Shown here piece by piece: positions 11,071 to 59,205 of a stretch of 64,000 bases of DNA. The position numbers and the translations under genes were made by a program. Origin of the DNA: Alphaproteobacteria bacterium. Its GTDB lineage: Bacteria > Pseudomonadota > Alphaproteobacteria > Paracaedibacterales > CAIULA01. The notes beneath the pieces are model-generated. The model was not told the DNA's origin, made no database searches, and was given only the letters and a program-made list of their open reading frames with translations. Each line of letters starts with the position of its first letter. The first letter of the stretch is position 1. The stretch is from positions 1 to 64,000 of the forward strand of contig CANJLN010000004.1 in assembly GCA_947475175.1 (NCBI GenBank), given 5' to 3'.

Positions 11071-12209
11071 AAAACCTCAGTAACGCCGTGACGGCGTCTT
11101 GTCAGAGAAAGAAGCATACCCATTGCAATTCCAAGAGCAACCAAAGAGGAACCACCGTAACTGACAAAGGGCATGGTCATTCCTTTCGTTGGTATGAGAT
11201 GAAGAGCAGAGGCCATGTTGATAAACGCTTGAAGTCCAAACTGCATGGCAATTCCGGACGTCCCCATAATGACAAACAGACTAGAGTCTTGCATGGCTCG
11301 AAGGAGTGAGCGAATAACGATGAATGCAAACAATCCAACCATAGCAAGACAAAGGACAAGCCCAAATTCCTCACCAGCGACTGCAAAAACGAAATCAGCA
11401 TGCGCATCTGGTACGTTTTTTTTGATAATGCCTTCGCCAGGACCCCGGCCAAATAGACCCCCATTCATAAACGCTTCTAGGGATTGGTTGACTTGATAAA
11501 GATCGTGCTTTGGGTCACCTGACGTTGGGTCAAAAAACTGATCAATACGTCTGGCAACGTGAGGGAATAAGAAATATGCCCCACAAAAACCTGAGACGCC
11601 CAAACCACCTAAAATAACCATCCATATGATGGGCATGCCTGCGATAAACAGTTGACCAATCCAAGTTGATACGACCACCAAAGTCATTCCTAAATCCGGT
11701 TGTAGAAGAAGTAATAACACAAGAATGGAGAGTAAAATAAAGGATATCAGCAAGCCAGGGAATTGAAAATCTCGGTATTTTTCAGCTAACATCCATGCAA
11801 CCATAATAGCGAAAGCTGGTTTTATGAATTCTGAAGCTTGAATAGATGTCCCAGCAATCATAACCCATCGCCGAGCTCCTTTGATTTCAGCGCCGTTAAA
11901 CAATGTAATAACAAGCAAAATGACGCCGACTAGGTAAATGAGAGAGGCAAATCTTCGGACTTGTTGAGGAGAGAGAAGAGAAACACTAATCATTAAAACA
12001 AGGGCAGGGGGCACCATAATCATATGGCGTTTCACAAAGAAAAACGTTCCCAAATTAAGACGGTCAGCAACAGGTGGGCTTGCGGCAAAACTGAGCAGGA
12101 CTCCAAGTGCTACGATAATGAGGATAGCACCCAGGCTCCAACGGTCAACAGTCCACCACCATCTTCCAAGAACACTTGTATCACGACGGGAAAAAGGTGC
12201 CGTGCTCAT
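11067..12209 (-). CDS. ftsW: Septal peptidoglycan polymerase FtsW (SEDS family)
   Basis: FtsW is the SEDS glycosyltransferase that polymerises lipid II at the septum with FtsI. The 380-residue protein has about ten membrane segments, the signature GRGPGEGIIKKNVPDAHADF (residues ~275-295), the FAVAGEEFG motif, and TKGMTMPFVSYGGSS near the end. It overlaps murD upstream and murG downstream by four bases each. Confidence 0.95.
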   Translation of the reverse strand: MSTAPFSRRDTSVLGRWWWTVDRWSLGAILIIVALGVLLSFAASPPVADRLNLGTFFFVKRHMIMVPPALVLMISVSLLSPQQVRRFASLIYLVGVILLVITLFNGAEIKGARRWVMIAGTSIQASEFIKPAFAIMVAWMLAEKYRDFQFPGLLISFILLSILVLLLLLQPDLGMTLVVVSTWIGQLFIAGMPIIWMVILGGLGVSGFCGAYFLFPHVARRIDQFFDPTSGDPKHDLYQVNQSLEAFMNGGLFGRGPGEGIIKKNVPDAHADFVFAVAGEEFGLVLCLAMVGLFAFIVIRSLLRAMQDSSLFVIMGTSGIAMQFGLQAFINMASALHLIPTKGMTMPFVSYGGSSLVALGIAMGMLLSLTRRRHGVTEVL

Positions 12210-14647: not shown

Positions 14648-16051
14648 TTATGCAGCCACCGTAGAAGGTTGAGATAAAAGAGAGTCGACAACTTTGCTTA
14701 CTTTGCTCCCATGAGATCCTTTTACAAATACGATATCACCGTCTTGAATATGAGAGATGACATGAGAAACTAACGCATCTGCTGTGAGCTCGAATTTTCC
14801 TTGTAGATTCTGAGGAAGAATATCAAACAAGGGCTCCATTCCACTTCCTGTTGCAAATACAGTATCGACGCCGGCCGCCACAATTGCTGGTTCTAACCCT
14901 TTGTGATAATCAGCTGATTTATAGCCAAGTTCTAACATTTCCCCTAAAACAGCGATTTTTCTACCTTTTGTTTCGAGAGATCCAAGAACACTTAAGCCTG
15001 CTTTCATTGAAGTCGGATTCGCATTATAGGCATCGTCGATCAGGGTAAATGTGCCGCCATTTGTAAGTTTTAGAGTATGTTGTAGTCCGCGGCCTTTGAT
15101 AGGTTGAAGAGTAGATAATGCCGTTGCGGCTTTATCTACTGATAAACCCAAAGCATCGATACACGTCAAAATAATCAAACTGTTTATAGCATAATGTTCG
15201 CCCTGAAAGGGTAATGTATAGCGTATCTCTTTTCCTTTAATCTCAGCGACTATTGAAGCCCCATTTGGGTTAACTTCATAAGAAAGCAGTCTTGTGTCTG
15301 CTCCTTGATTTTTGCCAACGCCATAAACATGAGCAGCGCCTTTTGTTCGTGCAGCTTTGGCTAAAGTGTCAAATTGAGGAATATCATAATTGATGATGGC
15401 AGTGCCGCCCGTTTTTAATCCTGAAAAGATCTCAGATTTTTCTGTTGTAATTGCTTCTAACGAACCAAGACGTCCGATGTGCGCTTCTGTGATTGTTGTG
15501 ATAATGGCTATATCAGGATTTACCATTTTTGTTAAAGGAGCAATCTCACCTGGGGAATTTGTCCCAAGTTCAAAGACGCCGTATTGTGTGGTTTTATCAA
15601 GAGAGGTAAGACTTAAAGGAGCTCCCCATTGATTGTTAAAGCTTGCTGGCGAAGAAACAGTTTTTCCAAAATGACCTAAGATTTGGCGTAACCATTCTTT
15701 TGTTGTTGTTTTGCCCGAGCTTCCTGTTATGGCAATAATTTCAGCTGTACTTTTTGCGCGGGCATATGTGCCCAAAGCTGTAAGAGCTTGAAGTGTATCA
15801 TCAACTAGGAAATAGGTGTGGCAATTCAGGCTTAAATCGAGGGGATCACTTATAATAACAGCAGAAGCACCTTTTTCAAGAGCATCGTTGACGTAATCAT
15901 GTCCATCAAGAGATTCACCCTTTATAGCAATATAAATCTCGCCTTTTTTAAGAGTTCGAGAATCTATAGAAATACCCGTTGCTTCGAAATCTGAATCTAT
16001 TGCAATAAGTCCTAAAGCTTGCGTGATATCTCTTGCTGTCCATAGTGACAT
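14648..16051 (-). CDS. murF: UDP-MurNAc-tripeptide--D-Ala-D-Ala ligase MurF
   Basis: MurF adds the D-Ala-D-Ala dipeptide made by Ddl to complete the pentapeptide. The 467-residue protein shows GISIDSRTLKKGEIYIAIKG at the N-terminus, the P-loop ITGSSGKTTTKEWL (about 108-121), ITTITEAHIGRLGS and IDDAYNANPTSMKAGL. Its end has VFVKGSHGSKVSKVV. It follows murE by 19 bases. Confidence 0.96.
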   Translation of the reverse strand: MSLWTARDITQALGLIAIDSDFEATGISIDSRTLKKGEIYIAIKGESLDGHDYVNDALEKGASAVIISDPLDLSLNCHTYFLVDDTLQALTALGTYARAKSTAEIIAITGSSGKTTTKEWLRQILGHFGKTVSSPASFNNQWGAPLSLTSLDKTTQYGVFELGTNSPGEIAPLTKMVNPDIAIITTITEAHIGRLGSLEAITTEKSEIFSGLKTGGTAIINYDIPQFDTLAKAARTKGAAHVYGVGKNQGADTRLLSYEVNPNGASIVAEIKGKEIRYTLPFQGEHYAINSLIILTCIDALGLSVDKAATALSTLQPIKGRGLQHTLKLTNGGTFTLIDDAYNANPTSMKAGLSVLGSLETKGRKIAVLGEMLELGYKSADYHKGLEPAIVAAGVDTVFATGSGMEPLFDILPQNLQGKFELTADALVSHVISHIQDGDIVFVKGSHGSKVSKVVDSLLSQPSTVAA

Positions 16052-26534: not shown

Positions 26535-26595
26535 ATATCATCACACGCTATTTTTGAAATTTTTTCTTTAACCTCACAAAGTTGGAGTGGGTGCG

Positions 26596-26881
26596 ATGTT
26601 AATGCGACGACATATTTTTATTTATGGTTTTTCCATGTTTTCCATGTTCTTTGGGTCTGGGAACTTGGTATTTCCTCTTCAAGTAGGATTTGAATCCGGA
26701 GGAGCCTGGTTTCTGGGATTCATGGGACTTTTCTTGACGGGTATTATTTTGCCCTTCTTAGGGCTTTTTGTGATCAAACTTCACAATGGTAATTATCTTT
26801 CTTTTTTCTCAGAGGCTGGCAAAAGTGCAGGTTTATTCCTGCCCTTATTTACGCTTTCTTTGCTGGGGGCTTTTGGCGTTG
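26596..26881 (+). pseudogene. brnQ: Branched-chain amino acid carrier BrnQ, 5' fragment
   Basis: The fragment encodes the first ~95 residues of a BrnQ/LIVCS-type carrier. FSMFSMFFGSGNLVFPLQVG is almost the same as in the intact paralogue at 58087-59205 (AMFSMFFGSGNLVFPLLIG). ATG 26596 has GGAG eight bases upstream. At GAFGV the gene meets the inserted cassette and stops eight codons later. Excision of the cassette plus one 10-bp duplication restores GAFGVVPRC, as in the paralogue (GPFGVIPRC), and a full gene of about 378 residues. Confidence 0.92.
26872..26881. repeat. Target duplication of the inserted cassette, left copy
   Basis: TTTGGCGTTG is repeated at 28419-28428. It is the brnQ codons for Phe-Gly-Val, which shows the cassette moved in as one unit. 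Confidence 0.85.
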
Positions 26882-27046
26882 CAATGTCATTCGGTTAAGT
26901 AAAAAAGTTAAGTTGCTGCTGTGTAAAAATTGAAAATAACGAGCAAAACTGATAAATGAACTAGCACGAATAGCGCATAAAACCATAGTAAAATGGAGTT
27001 CTGTAGCTCTGTACTTTCAATGTCCATCGTTAACCAAATGCCATTG
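26882..27046 (+). repeat. MITE-like unit, left copy (165 bp)
   Basis: The unit has terminal inverted repeats (CATTCGGTTAA / TTAACCAAATG) and about 90 percent identity by eye to the right copy. The two share GTGTAAAAATTGAAAATAAC and TAGCGCATAAAACCATAGT. A short duplication near its end (CTGTAGCTCTGTAC) makes it 9 bases longer. Confidence 0.85.
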
Positions 27047-27341
27047 CTCCTACTCCCCCCGGGGTCAAGAGGAAGGCAAGGGCGGTCTGTGAGTCCCTCC
27101 TTGATTAGAGAGGTGTTTTCTGTCGTTTGTCTGTAATGTCAGTCATTCTGTGGCTTGTCGTGTCCTGTTTGGGGGTGTCTGCCCGGGACTATTTAGTAGA
27201 CCAGTAGACTGTCTCTAAAATGTCACAGAAAAGAGACTCCCCCTTAAAATATCAGGAGGAGATTCTTATTGAGGTTTAATTTTGATCACATCTTTGATAT
27301 AGGTTTGTTTGTATCAAGTTCAAAAATAGGAAAGGTTCAAA
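27047..27341. other. Non-coding left arm of the cassette
   Basis: No gene is seen. It is more GC-rich than its surroundings at the left (CCCCCCGGGG at about 27055) and probably holds the promoter of the outer-membrane gene toward its right side, where AGGAAAGG lies just before the start codon. No strong promoter hexamers stand out. Confidence 0.4.
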
Positions 27342-28106
27342 ATGAAAAAATTGTCTTTAGTTCTTTTGGGAAGCTTAGCAGCAGCCCAAATTGCACAAGC
27401 AGCTCCAGGGTCTTTTAACGGATTCTATGTTGGTGGCCAATTAGGGTTGACACAGCGAAACCATAAAATTAATACCGATGATTCTTTTTCCAAATATGCC
27501 CGGGATCCGTTGAGTAAAAACAGAAAAGTAAACGGAATGACCTATGGCCTTTACGCAGGGTACGGACAAAACAATAATGGTTTTTATTGGGGGGGGGAAT
27601 TTGGCATTGAGCACAGTACGGCCAATAAGAGATTTAATTGTGATCATGAAATTCCACAGGAAAGGAGGAATCCAGCAGGAAGAGTTATCAGGCCTATCGA
27701 GATGGAGCAAATCAAAAGAGAAATGAGCTATACCTACCGGAGAGGGGTTGTTTTTTCCTTAACTCCCAGGCTTGGGGCCGTTATTGCGACCGACCATTTG
27801 ATTTACGCCAAACTGGGAATGGAACTGAGTCGAGACACGGCAAGAGCGGTAGTAGCTGGAGTTGAAAGAGAGGTAGTAGGCCCAGTAGCAGCTGGAGTTA
27901 CAAGAGCTGTAAACTTCAGAGCTGAGAGCAATCAATCAAAGACAAACCTCGTTTTTGTTCCCGGTTTTGGTTATGAACACGCCTTTGGTAAGGTATTGGG
28001 ACGTGTTGAATACGGCTACAACATGGGCGGAAAAGTTAAATTCAGCAATGCCACTGCTAAATATTCGCCTCATGTGCTTAAGGTTGGCGTCGCTTATAAA
28101 TTTTAG
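27342..28106 (+). CDS. Outer-membrane beta-barrel protein (cassette cargo)
   Basis: The 254-residue product has a signal peptide (MKKLSLVLLGSLAAAQIAQA, cleaved before APGSF) and then alternating strands of the small OmpA/OmpW-like barrel type (FNGFYVGGQLGLTQ; GMTYGLYAGYG; GFYWGGEFGIEH; LVFVPGFGYEHAFG; GRVEYGYNMGG). It ends in VGVAYKF, the C-terminal Phe signal read by the BAM machinery. A short internal near-repeat occurs (VVAGVEREV / VAAGVTRAV, about residues 170-190) in what is likely an exposed loop. Alphaproteobacterial surface antigens are of this type. The exact role is unknown. Confidence 0.85.
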   Translation: MKKLSLVLLGSLAAAQIAQAAPGSFNGFYVGGQLGLTQRNHKINTDDSFSKYARDPLSKNRKVNGMTYGLYAGYGQNNNGFYWGGEFGIEHSTANKRFNCDHEIPQERRNPAGRVIRPIEMEQIKREMSYTYRRGVVFSLTPRLGAVIATDHLIYAKLGMELSRDTARAVVAGVEREVVGPVAAGVTRAVNFRAESNQSKTNLVFVPGFGYEHAFGKVLGRVEYGYNMGGKVKFSNATAKYSPHVLKVGVAYKF

Positions 28107-28235
28107 GGTATAAAGGCTTTTTTCTGTGCCTGATTGAGGCCCTATTTGGAAATTTGGTAAAAATAATCCAGTCCCTAGAATTGGAGCTGGGTCTATCCAC
28201 GGCCCCTGATAGGACTCTCATACACGCCATTAAGA

Positions 28236-28262
28236 GAGATGGGGGCAGACTCCCCCCATCTC
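28236..28262. other. Strong GC-rich hairpin inside the cassette
   Basis: GAGATGGGGG and CCCCCATCTC form a perfect 10-bp stem around a 7-base loop, directly before the right MITE copy. There is no T run, so it is not a typical terminator, but it could stabilise the 3' end of the outer-membrane protein mRNA. Confidence 0.6.
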
Positions 28263-28418
28263 CAAGGGCATTCGGTTAAGCAAAAAAGTCAAGTTGCTTC
28301 TGTGTAAAAATTGAAAATAACGAGCAAAATTGATAAATGAACTAGCACGAATAGCGCATAAAACCATAGTAAAATGGAGCTCTGTACTTTCATGTTCATC
28401 GTTAACCGAATGCCATTG
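28263..28418 (+). repeat. MITE-like unit, right copy (156 bp)
   Basis: Direct repeat of 26882-27046 with terminal arms CATTCGGTTAA and TTAACCGAATG. Its last part supplies an ATG (28374) in frame with the rest of brnQ. Confidence 0.85.
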
Positions 28419-28428
28419 TTTGGCGTTG
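28419..28428. repeat. Target duplication of the inserted cassette, right copy
   Basis: TTTGGCGTTG, identical to 26872-26881. Confidence 0.85.
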
Positions 28429-29279
28429 TCCCTCGTTGTATCACCGTTGCTCATGGTGGAATTGAGTATATTTTTAAAGATTTATCCTTAATTCTATTCA
28501 GCTTTGTATTTTGCGCCATTTCTTATCTGATTTCTCTGAAAGACGCGAGAATGATTGAAATTTTAGGTAAGTGGTTAACGCCCATCAAATTGCTAAGTTT
28601 AGCTATCTTAATTGGTTGTGGTGTTTTTTATGCTCCTTCACTTCAAGATATACCTTCAAATGGCTTTGCAATAGGCTTTCATGAAGGGTATAAGACGATG
28701 GATCTTTTTGCCGCTTTCTTTTTCTCGGCTTTGATTTTTAAGCAGCTTCAACAGTTTACGAACGGTTCAGAAGATCCAAAGACCATTATCAAAACAGCCT
28801 TAAAGCCAAGTTTAATTGGTGCATTTTTACTAGCGGTTGTTTATTTAGGGTTCGTTTATCTGGGAGCTGCTTATAGACCCATTATTACCAACGTGACGCC
28901 TGAACTCATATTGCCAACAATAGCGTCTCATTTAATGGGTGACAAAGCCTCGCTTTTAATTGGCATTACGGTTGTTTTTTCGTGCCTGAGTACGGCAATT
29001 GCCCTTAATAATATTTATGCGCGCTATCTTTGCGCCACTCTCAAACTAAAAGAAACAGTGTTTCCCTACATGTTGCTGGTAACAACGATTGTATCGTTTC
29101 TTGTTTCTTTATTGGATTTCAAAGGGATTGCTGCTTTCTTGGGGCCTCTTCTCGAGATTTCCTATCCAGGGCTTATCGTTTTAACCATTGTGTCTATTTT
29201 TGTAAAAGATAAGGTAGTCCTTAAAAAGGTTGCTTTTTACGGGATGGTTGCTTTGACGCTGTGGCATCAATATGGGTGA
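28419..29279 (+). pseudogene. brnQ: Branched-chain amino acid carrier BrnQ, 3' fragment
   Basis: From the repeated TTTGGCGTTG the frame reads FGVVPRCITVAHGG and continues through about nine membrane segments typical of BrnQ (GFHEGYKTMDLFAAFFFSAL; TVVFSCLSTAIALNN), matching the second to last parts of the intact paralogue. It also opens at an ATG in the MITE (28374), so a truncated protein missing the first ~3 segments could be translated. Transport without them is unlikely. Confidence 0.9.
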
Positions 29280-58087: not shown

Positions 58088-59205
58088 TAACAGGTCTCAA
58101 CCGTTTTAAAGCATGATGATTTGCGAGCAATTTGAACAATGGCATAGACAACAAGAAGGGGATAGATCCACTCTAAAATAGATCCAAGCCATGCACAGAT
58201 GAACTGGAAACCTAATAAAGATATTCCAAAGGAAATGGCCAAAGTCAGCAAGATAGAATGGGGTCTTGTTAATCTTCCTCGACTAATATCATCTTGTAAG
58301 AAATCAACAAATAGTGTTGTTAAAACAGTTGCTGTTGCAAGGCAAGAAACTGCCAATGTTAAGGCAACTAGAGGCATGGCGTATATTCCCAAAGCGTGTC
58401 TAGCAATTTCTGTCAGCATAGACTCAGCTGGAATACCTTTTAGAACAGGAGCATATTTTGCGCCAAGCATGACAAATCCAATATAGATAAGGCTTAAAAG
58501 AAAGGCCCCAATGAGACTTGAATAGATGCCCATTTTAAAAAGAAGACGTTCTTGAGTCGAAGATCCTTTTTGGTCACGGATTTTCATTTGAAGGTATTCA
58601 TATATGGTGCAAGCAAAGAAAAATCCAGCTATCAAATCCATCGTTTGATAGCCCTGCACAATACCCATCAGAAAAGCATCATTTGAAGTATGCAGAGAGG
58701 GGAGGGGATCATCACCAAAATATAAACCAGCTATGATTAAAAGAACAATGCTGCCCAGTTTAAAGGGGGTCAGAACGAGAGCGATGATGCTGACGATGCG
58801 ATTGCGTTTCCAGATAAGCGCCCCTGTAAGCCCACAAAAAATAAAACTAAATAAAGCAAAAGATAAATGTGGGATCATAAGGCTTAATCCGCCGAAAGCA
58901 ACAGTTGTGCATCTAGGTATAACGCCAAAGGGTCCTATAAGAGCTAACATGAGAAAAGTTAGAATAAAAGCGGGTGCTTTTCCAAGGCTGGAGAAATAGG
59001 CCTTACGGTCTCCATTAAATTGAATCATGCCAAGCAACCCTAAGAAAGGGACGCAAACTGCCGTTATCAAAAGGCCTGCAATTGCAAAGCTGTAGTAATT
59101 TGTTGTTTCATAACCGATTAGCAAGGGAAATACCAAGTTTCCTGAGCCAAAAAACATAGAGAACATGGCAAAACCTGCTGTTAAAACAAGTTTGTACGGG
59201 TGCAT
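58087..59205 (-). CDS. brnQ: Branched-chain amino acid carrier BrnQ, intact copy
   Basis: The 372-residue LIVCS-family carrier has about 11-12 membrane segments. Conserved stretches are AMFSMFFGSGNLVFPLLIG, GPFGVIPRCTTVAFGG and MGIVQGYQTMDLIAGFFF. It is the intact paralogue of the interrupted copy at 26596-29279, and so may now carry the Ile/Leu/Val uptake alone. No leader peptide is visible in the ~100 bases upstream. It overlaps mnmA at the stop. Confidence 0.93.
   Translation of the reverse strand: MHPYKLVLTAGFAMFSMFFGSGNLVFPLLIGYETTNYYSFAIAGLLITAVCVPFLGLLGMIQFNGDRKAYFSSLGKAPAFILTFLMLALIGPFGVIPRCTTVAFGGLSLMIPHLSFALFSFIFCGLTGALIWKRNRIVSIIALVLTPFKLGSIVLLIIAGLYFGDDPLPSLHTSNDAFLMGIVQGYQTMDLIAGFFFACTIYEYLQMKIRDQKGSSTQERLLFKMGIYSSLIGAFLLSLIYIGFVMLGAKYAPVLKGIPAESMLTEIARHALGIYAMPLVALTLAVSCLATATVLTTLFVDFLQDDISRGRLTRPHSILLTLAISFGISLLGFQFICAWLGSILEWIYPLLVVYAIVQIARKSSCFKTVETC

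Follow-up and report, generated by a model that had tools for sequence, protein, structure and literature searches.

A transposase-less cassette of two IS4-type MITEs around an outer-membrane protein gene, probably inserted into brnQ by transposition

The brnQ gene of a small-genome alphaproteobacterium is interrupted by a 1537-bp element that has no transposase gene and instead carries a passenger gene, encoding an outer-membrane protein, between two MITEs. We consider it probable that this is a composite mobile insertion cassette of the IS4 type, which entered brnQ by transposition. The element lies at 26882–28418 of the window, by which we mean the whole 64,000-nucleotide stretch of DNA analysed here, and sits between two copies of TTTGGCGTTG, so that it spans 26872–28428 when the duplicated target is included.

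The boundaries of the element are sharply defined. Its two 10-bp flanking copies of TTTGGCGTTG, the left at 26872–26881 and the right at 28419–28428 (no strand assigned to either), match at 10/10 positions, while pairs of random positions drawn within the window gave exact 10-bp matches in 3/200,000 cases. Immediately inside them are outer inverted repeats of 17 bp, CAATGTCATTCGGTTAA and TTAACCGAATGCCATTG, identical at 16/17 positions; the outer termini of the element are CAATGTCATTCGGTTAA and the complement of CAATGGCATTCGGTTAA. Each extremity is formed by a MITE on the plus strand, with unit 1 (165 bp, 26882–27046) running from an outer end at 26882–26898 to an inner end at 27030–27046, and unit 2 (156 bp, 28263–28418) from an inner end at 28263–28279 to an outer end at 28402–28418. 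Both units are complete, with an end pair each, and the inner ends show one departure from the consensus apiece and the outer ends none, which is expected if the outer pair alone was used. The units are directly oriented and 90% identical overall (94% across the first 124 nt), with an indel of 9 bp, and neither contains a credible gene. Between them lies a cargo segment of 1216 bp with 44% G+C (27047–28262, plus strand), whose 295 bp of 5' non-coding sequence have no second occurrence in the genome. No RNA family was found in the element, and scans of it for promoters and terminators gave counts no higher than in shuffled sequences. A first-pass annotation of this DNA had described the 1537-bp insert with its 17-bp terminal repeats and 10-bp duplication, a single beta-barrel gene and no transposase, all of which we recover; the direct orientation of its end units also stands, and only its term 'near-identical' overstates an identity of 90%.

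Comparison with related genomes shows what the insertion site looked like before it was occupied. The 5' part of brnQ (26587–26881, plus strand; Pfam PF05525, 56.5 bits), a branched-chain amino acid transporter gene, is broken after ~98 codons, its frame ending at a stop within the element (26898), and the 3' part resumes at 28429–29279 (plus strand; PF05525, 139.3 bits). When the flanks are rejoined with a single copy of TTTGGCGTTG, an unbroken BrnQ frame that is colinear with relatives results, as the first-pass annotation had claimed, and the empty site that it had proposed to look for in relatives is present both in a genome of the same genus (G001) and in one of the same family (G007), where brnQ is uninterrupted. 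The rejoined gene aligns without gaps to that of G001 (79% over 1148 nt) and at 78% to that of G007, the sole gap there being 3 bp long and far from the junction. Since brnQ is uninterrupted in both, the insertion arose in the lineage of the present genome. The lack of stops in brnQ is too weak a basis for dating it, as 24% of simulations at 3% divergence were free of stops. Within the element, a frame of 301 aa (28374–29279) starts at an ATG in MITE unit 2 and reads on into the 3' part of brnQ. A second brnQ-family gene is found elsewhere in the window (58117–58929, minus strand; open frame of 372 aa, 41% identical), and its retention may account for the tolerated loss of the interrupted copy.

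The only credible gene in the element (27342–28106, plus strand) encodes an outer-membrane beta-barrel protein of 254 aa, which scores 39.4 bits with the OMP_b-brl family (PF13505; cut-off 28.7) and 27.1 bits with PF01389. The protein has a signal-like N-terminal stretch and a C-terminal Phe, and a structure model of moderate confidence, built from three sequences, is rich in strands over its whole length (mean pLDDT 70.8, pTM 0.63). The gene is single-copy in its own genome, and we discarded a recent duplication of a resident gene as its source, the best paralogue giving two short matches at 33–37% identity. Its nearest relatives, in genomes G002 (56% identity) and G006 (47%), occupy ordinary chromosomal loci where such ends are absent within several kb. 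In a phylogenetic tree, the cargo clusters with these two copies and apart from same-genus copies (support 100/98), which leaves two origins, an old paralogue that G001 has lost or a gene acquired within the family. The present genome has no omp gene at glyQ; a move of the glyQ-linked omp of G001 is not supported either, as the tree joins the cargo to G002 and G006 and not to G001. Searches of plasmid and phage collections returned no match to the cargo, and there was no sign of multiple cargo variants, multiple insertions, or phase or antigen variation. The suggestion in the first-pass annotation that the element serves to spread or vary surface antigens thus finds no support, given a single-copy cargo whose relatives, at no more than 56% identity, stand at ordinary loci without the ends and which is absent from the plasmid and phage collections.

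When the 17-bp end was used to scan the entire genome, three further places of interest emerged beyond the element in the window. The first is an IS of 1430 bp (G000:C39:13374–14803; L037 3375–4804) with ends CAATGTCATTCGGATAA and CAATGGCATTCGGTTAG and a 10-bp duplication, GCAGGCCTGC, which is the full IS with shared ends that the first-pass annotation had suggested searching for. Its transposase belongs to the IS4 family, scoring 184.6 bits with NF033592 (cut-off 115), and has DDE residues D128, D200 and E310 in D(60–110)D(100–150)E spacing and a YREK motif at Y303-R306-E310-K317. The IS4 subgroup is defined by ends of the form -AATR--------WTW, a length of 1400–1650 bp and duplications of 10–13 bp (Table 1, PMC2266710), and the ends (CAATGTCATTCGGATAA), length and duplication of this IS all fall within that signature. 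It is the only assembled IS with these ends in the genome, and its transposase frame, when aligned to the related transposase of Robbsia andropogonis, shifts near the C-terminus, so that it is not a single intact ORF. The frameshift concerns the activity of that copy, not its ancestry. With the sole assembled helper frameshifted, the cassette may have been moved by another copy, either lost or unassembled in a draft that is 95% complete. The IS adjoins genes that, judged by eye, are type I restriction-modification-like. The second place is a lone MITE of 163 bp (G000:C45:11798–11960), flanked by a 10-bp duplication, GTGACCCACG, and 74% identical to unit 1; near it, several open frames resemble, by eye, pieces of other transposases (L038 1735–3562). 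The third, on contig C31, comprises a half MITE at 15062 and a decayed end at 11973. The MITEs have only 16–18 bp at the ends in common with the resident IS and nothing in their interiors, and we could thus discard an origin of the MITEs as internal deletions of this IS. No IS or MITE of this kind was found in viral contigs.

An intact member of the same group exists in another host. In the plasmid collection, the closest transposase (WP_320533958.1), ~45% identical to that of the IS described above, belongs to an IS4-subgroup IS on plasmids p2 and p3 of Robbsia andropogonis (L163, L164), with ends CAATGGCATTCGGTTAAG...CTTAACCGAATGCCATTG, an intact transposase gene, and 10-bp duplications GTAAGCCCGA and TCCGGCTTGG, the boundaries having been set by comparing the two copies. 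This IS is a candidate helper for mobilisation. When 384 genomes were searched for the 17-bp end with one mismatch allowed, it was found in 24, while a reversed control gave a few single matches, and copies were numerous in several genomes of the order, such as G003 (10) and G018 (9). Most of the matches in G018 lie 131–148 bp from contig ends, a position that would be the usual mark of a multi-copy element breaking the assembly. In G003, one MITE of 130 bp has an exact duplication of 10 bp, and another, of 173 bp, lies on contig C27 (L129 6479–6651; duplication 9/10), 83 bp away from the 3' end of a gene (L129 6734–7552) that encodes an outer-membrane protein of a related family. A MITE next to such a gene is the arrangement from which a composite would presumably start, although one case proves nothing.

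A second transposase-less element was detected in G025, a genome of the same order. It is 1096 bp long (G025:C64:334–1429; L143 334–1429), has the same ends and an exact 10-bp duplication, ATTATTACAT, and contains an open frame of 250 aa and no recognised transposase; the 250-aa protein has a relative in G004 (39%), without these ends nearby. The two ends of the G025 element resemble one another, in inverted orientation, far past the terminal repeat (0/500 shuffles reach the score), and the two next-best end matches in its interior, with 4 mismatches each, lie ~156 and 168 bp in and are oriented like inner MITE ends. Both features suggest a composite with inverted units, and on this sequence evidence the G025 element is probably also a composite with MITE-derived ends.

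These observations suggest how the element in the window may have formed. Two MITEs with IS4-subgroup IS ends would have come to flank an outer-membrane protein gene, an IS4-family transposase acting in trans would have taken the outermost ends as those of one long element, and the whole 1537 bp would then have inserted into brnQ, duplicating 10 bp of target. Transposition as a composite, the reading already put forward in the first-pass annotation, is supported by outer ends that match and are flanked by an exact duplication of 10 bp, by the empty site in G001 and G007, by the presence in this genome of an IS and a lone MITE that share these ends and have 10-bp duplications of their own, by the intact IS in Robbsia with the same features, and by the second transposase-less element in G025. 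It is also supported by analogy with MIC231 and with Tn3-type MITE composites, for which cross-mobilisation has been shown experimentally (PMC4133298, PMC13367494). Counting against it, neither a donor locus nor a second composite copy was found in a search of this genome, the only assembled helper IS is frameshifted, the MITE interiors are unlike the IS past its 16–18-bp ends, and homologous recombination would likewise give units in direct orientation.

Recombination is the main rival, and we regard it as unlikely. In this scenario, a lone MITE entered brnQ with a 10-bp duplication, as the lone MITE elsewhere in the genome has done at its own site, and a circle carrying a MITE and the omp gene later crossed over into the resident MITE. 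Such an exchange requires direct units, as are indeed seen in the window, but it cannot yield the inverted end units of the comparable G025 element; it also needs a crossover inside ~160 bp at 90% identity and a circle derived from a donor locus, and no such locus was seen. Less probable still, the omp gene might have been captured within a single MITE or IS of which one end was later duplicated internally, which would make the element a simple cassette and no true composite. One-gene simple cassettes without a transposase are known (PMC3913671, PMC2600179), but the units here are complete, with both ends each, and differ by several substitutions besides the 9-bp indel, as two older copies of independent origin would. 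An assembly or binning artefact that placed a repeat-bounded fragment into brnQ is highly improbable even for a draft of 66 contigs evaluated from the contigs alone, since an exact 10-bp target duplication at the outer ends and a frame-perfect empty site would not arise in this way, and the contig that surrounds the element is 82.5 kb long.

Composite transposition, if correct, bears on a class of elements that has been described within narrow limits. Documented MITE-bounded composites mainly have Tn3-type ends and carry plasmid resistance genes, and the authors of a 2026 paper knew of no report from Enterobacteriaceae of one bounded by non-Tn3 MITEs (PMC13367494). With the element in the window, this design is seen with IS4-type ends, around a chromosomal gene for an outer-membrane protein and in a small-genome alphaproteobacterium; its 17-bp ends together with the 10-bp duplication provide a search key that turns up further members. 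We would tentatively raise the idea, which has a fairly low chance of being right, that IS4-type MITEs in this alphaproteobacterial order have given rise more than once to composites that lack a transposase, pick up single host genes, including some for surface proteins, and move them elsewhere. If true, this would be a gene-shuffling route for small genomes that annotation pipelines overlook, with the window and G025 elements as two independent cases.

Among the known systems closest to it are mobile insertion cassettes (MICs) such as MIC231 and MIC231D of Bacillus cereus, mic-qnrS2 and mic-qnrD, in which IS-type inverted repeats surround one or more genes, without a transposase and with a target duplication. 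For MIC231, the transposase that acts in trans to move it is that of IS231, an IS4-family element, and MIC231D has been termed a composite cassette (PMC3913671). Judged from its sequence, the element in the window falls under the structural definition of a MIC, having inverted repeats (16/17), a 10/10 duplication, no transposase and ends in common with an IS. It differs from MIC231, which has IS231 ends, in its IS4-subgroup ends with a complete MITE at each, and from known MICs in its outer-membrane protein cargo and its small-genome alphaproteobacterial host. An IS-bounded composite transposon does not describe it, the flanking units of 165 and 156 bp being without transposase. TIME-COMPs, which include the integron mobilization unit, likewise consist of two MITEs around a passenger segment; theirs are Tn3-derived, stand in direct or inverted orientation and are moved in trans, and the outer ends usually have a flanking target duplication (PMC4133298, PMC13367494). 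Tn3-type ends (38 bp for TIMEs, PMC4133298) come with duplications of 5–6 bp, whereas those of the element in the window are 17 bp long, of IS4 type, and come with 10 bp, and because of these differences in ends and duplication length it is TIME-COMP-like but not a TIME-COMP. The Robbsia andropogonis IS shares the terminal sequence CAATGGCATTCGGTTAAG and the 10-bp duplications with the system in the window, but it is autonomous, with its own intact transposase, and the element in brnQ is not. The design is thus that of a known cassette, and its variation is a whole IS4-subgroup MITE at each end.
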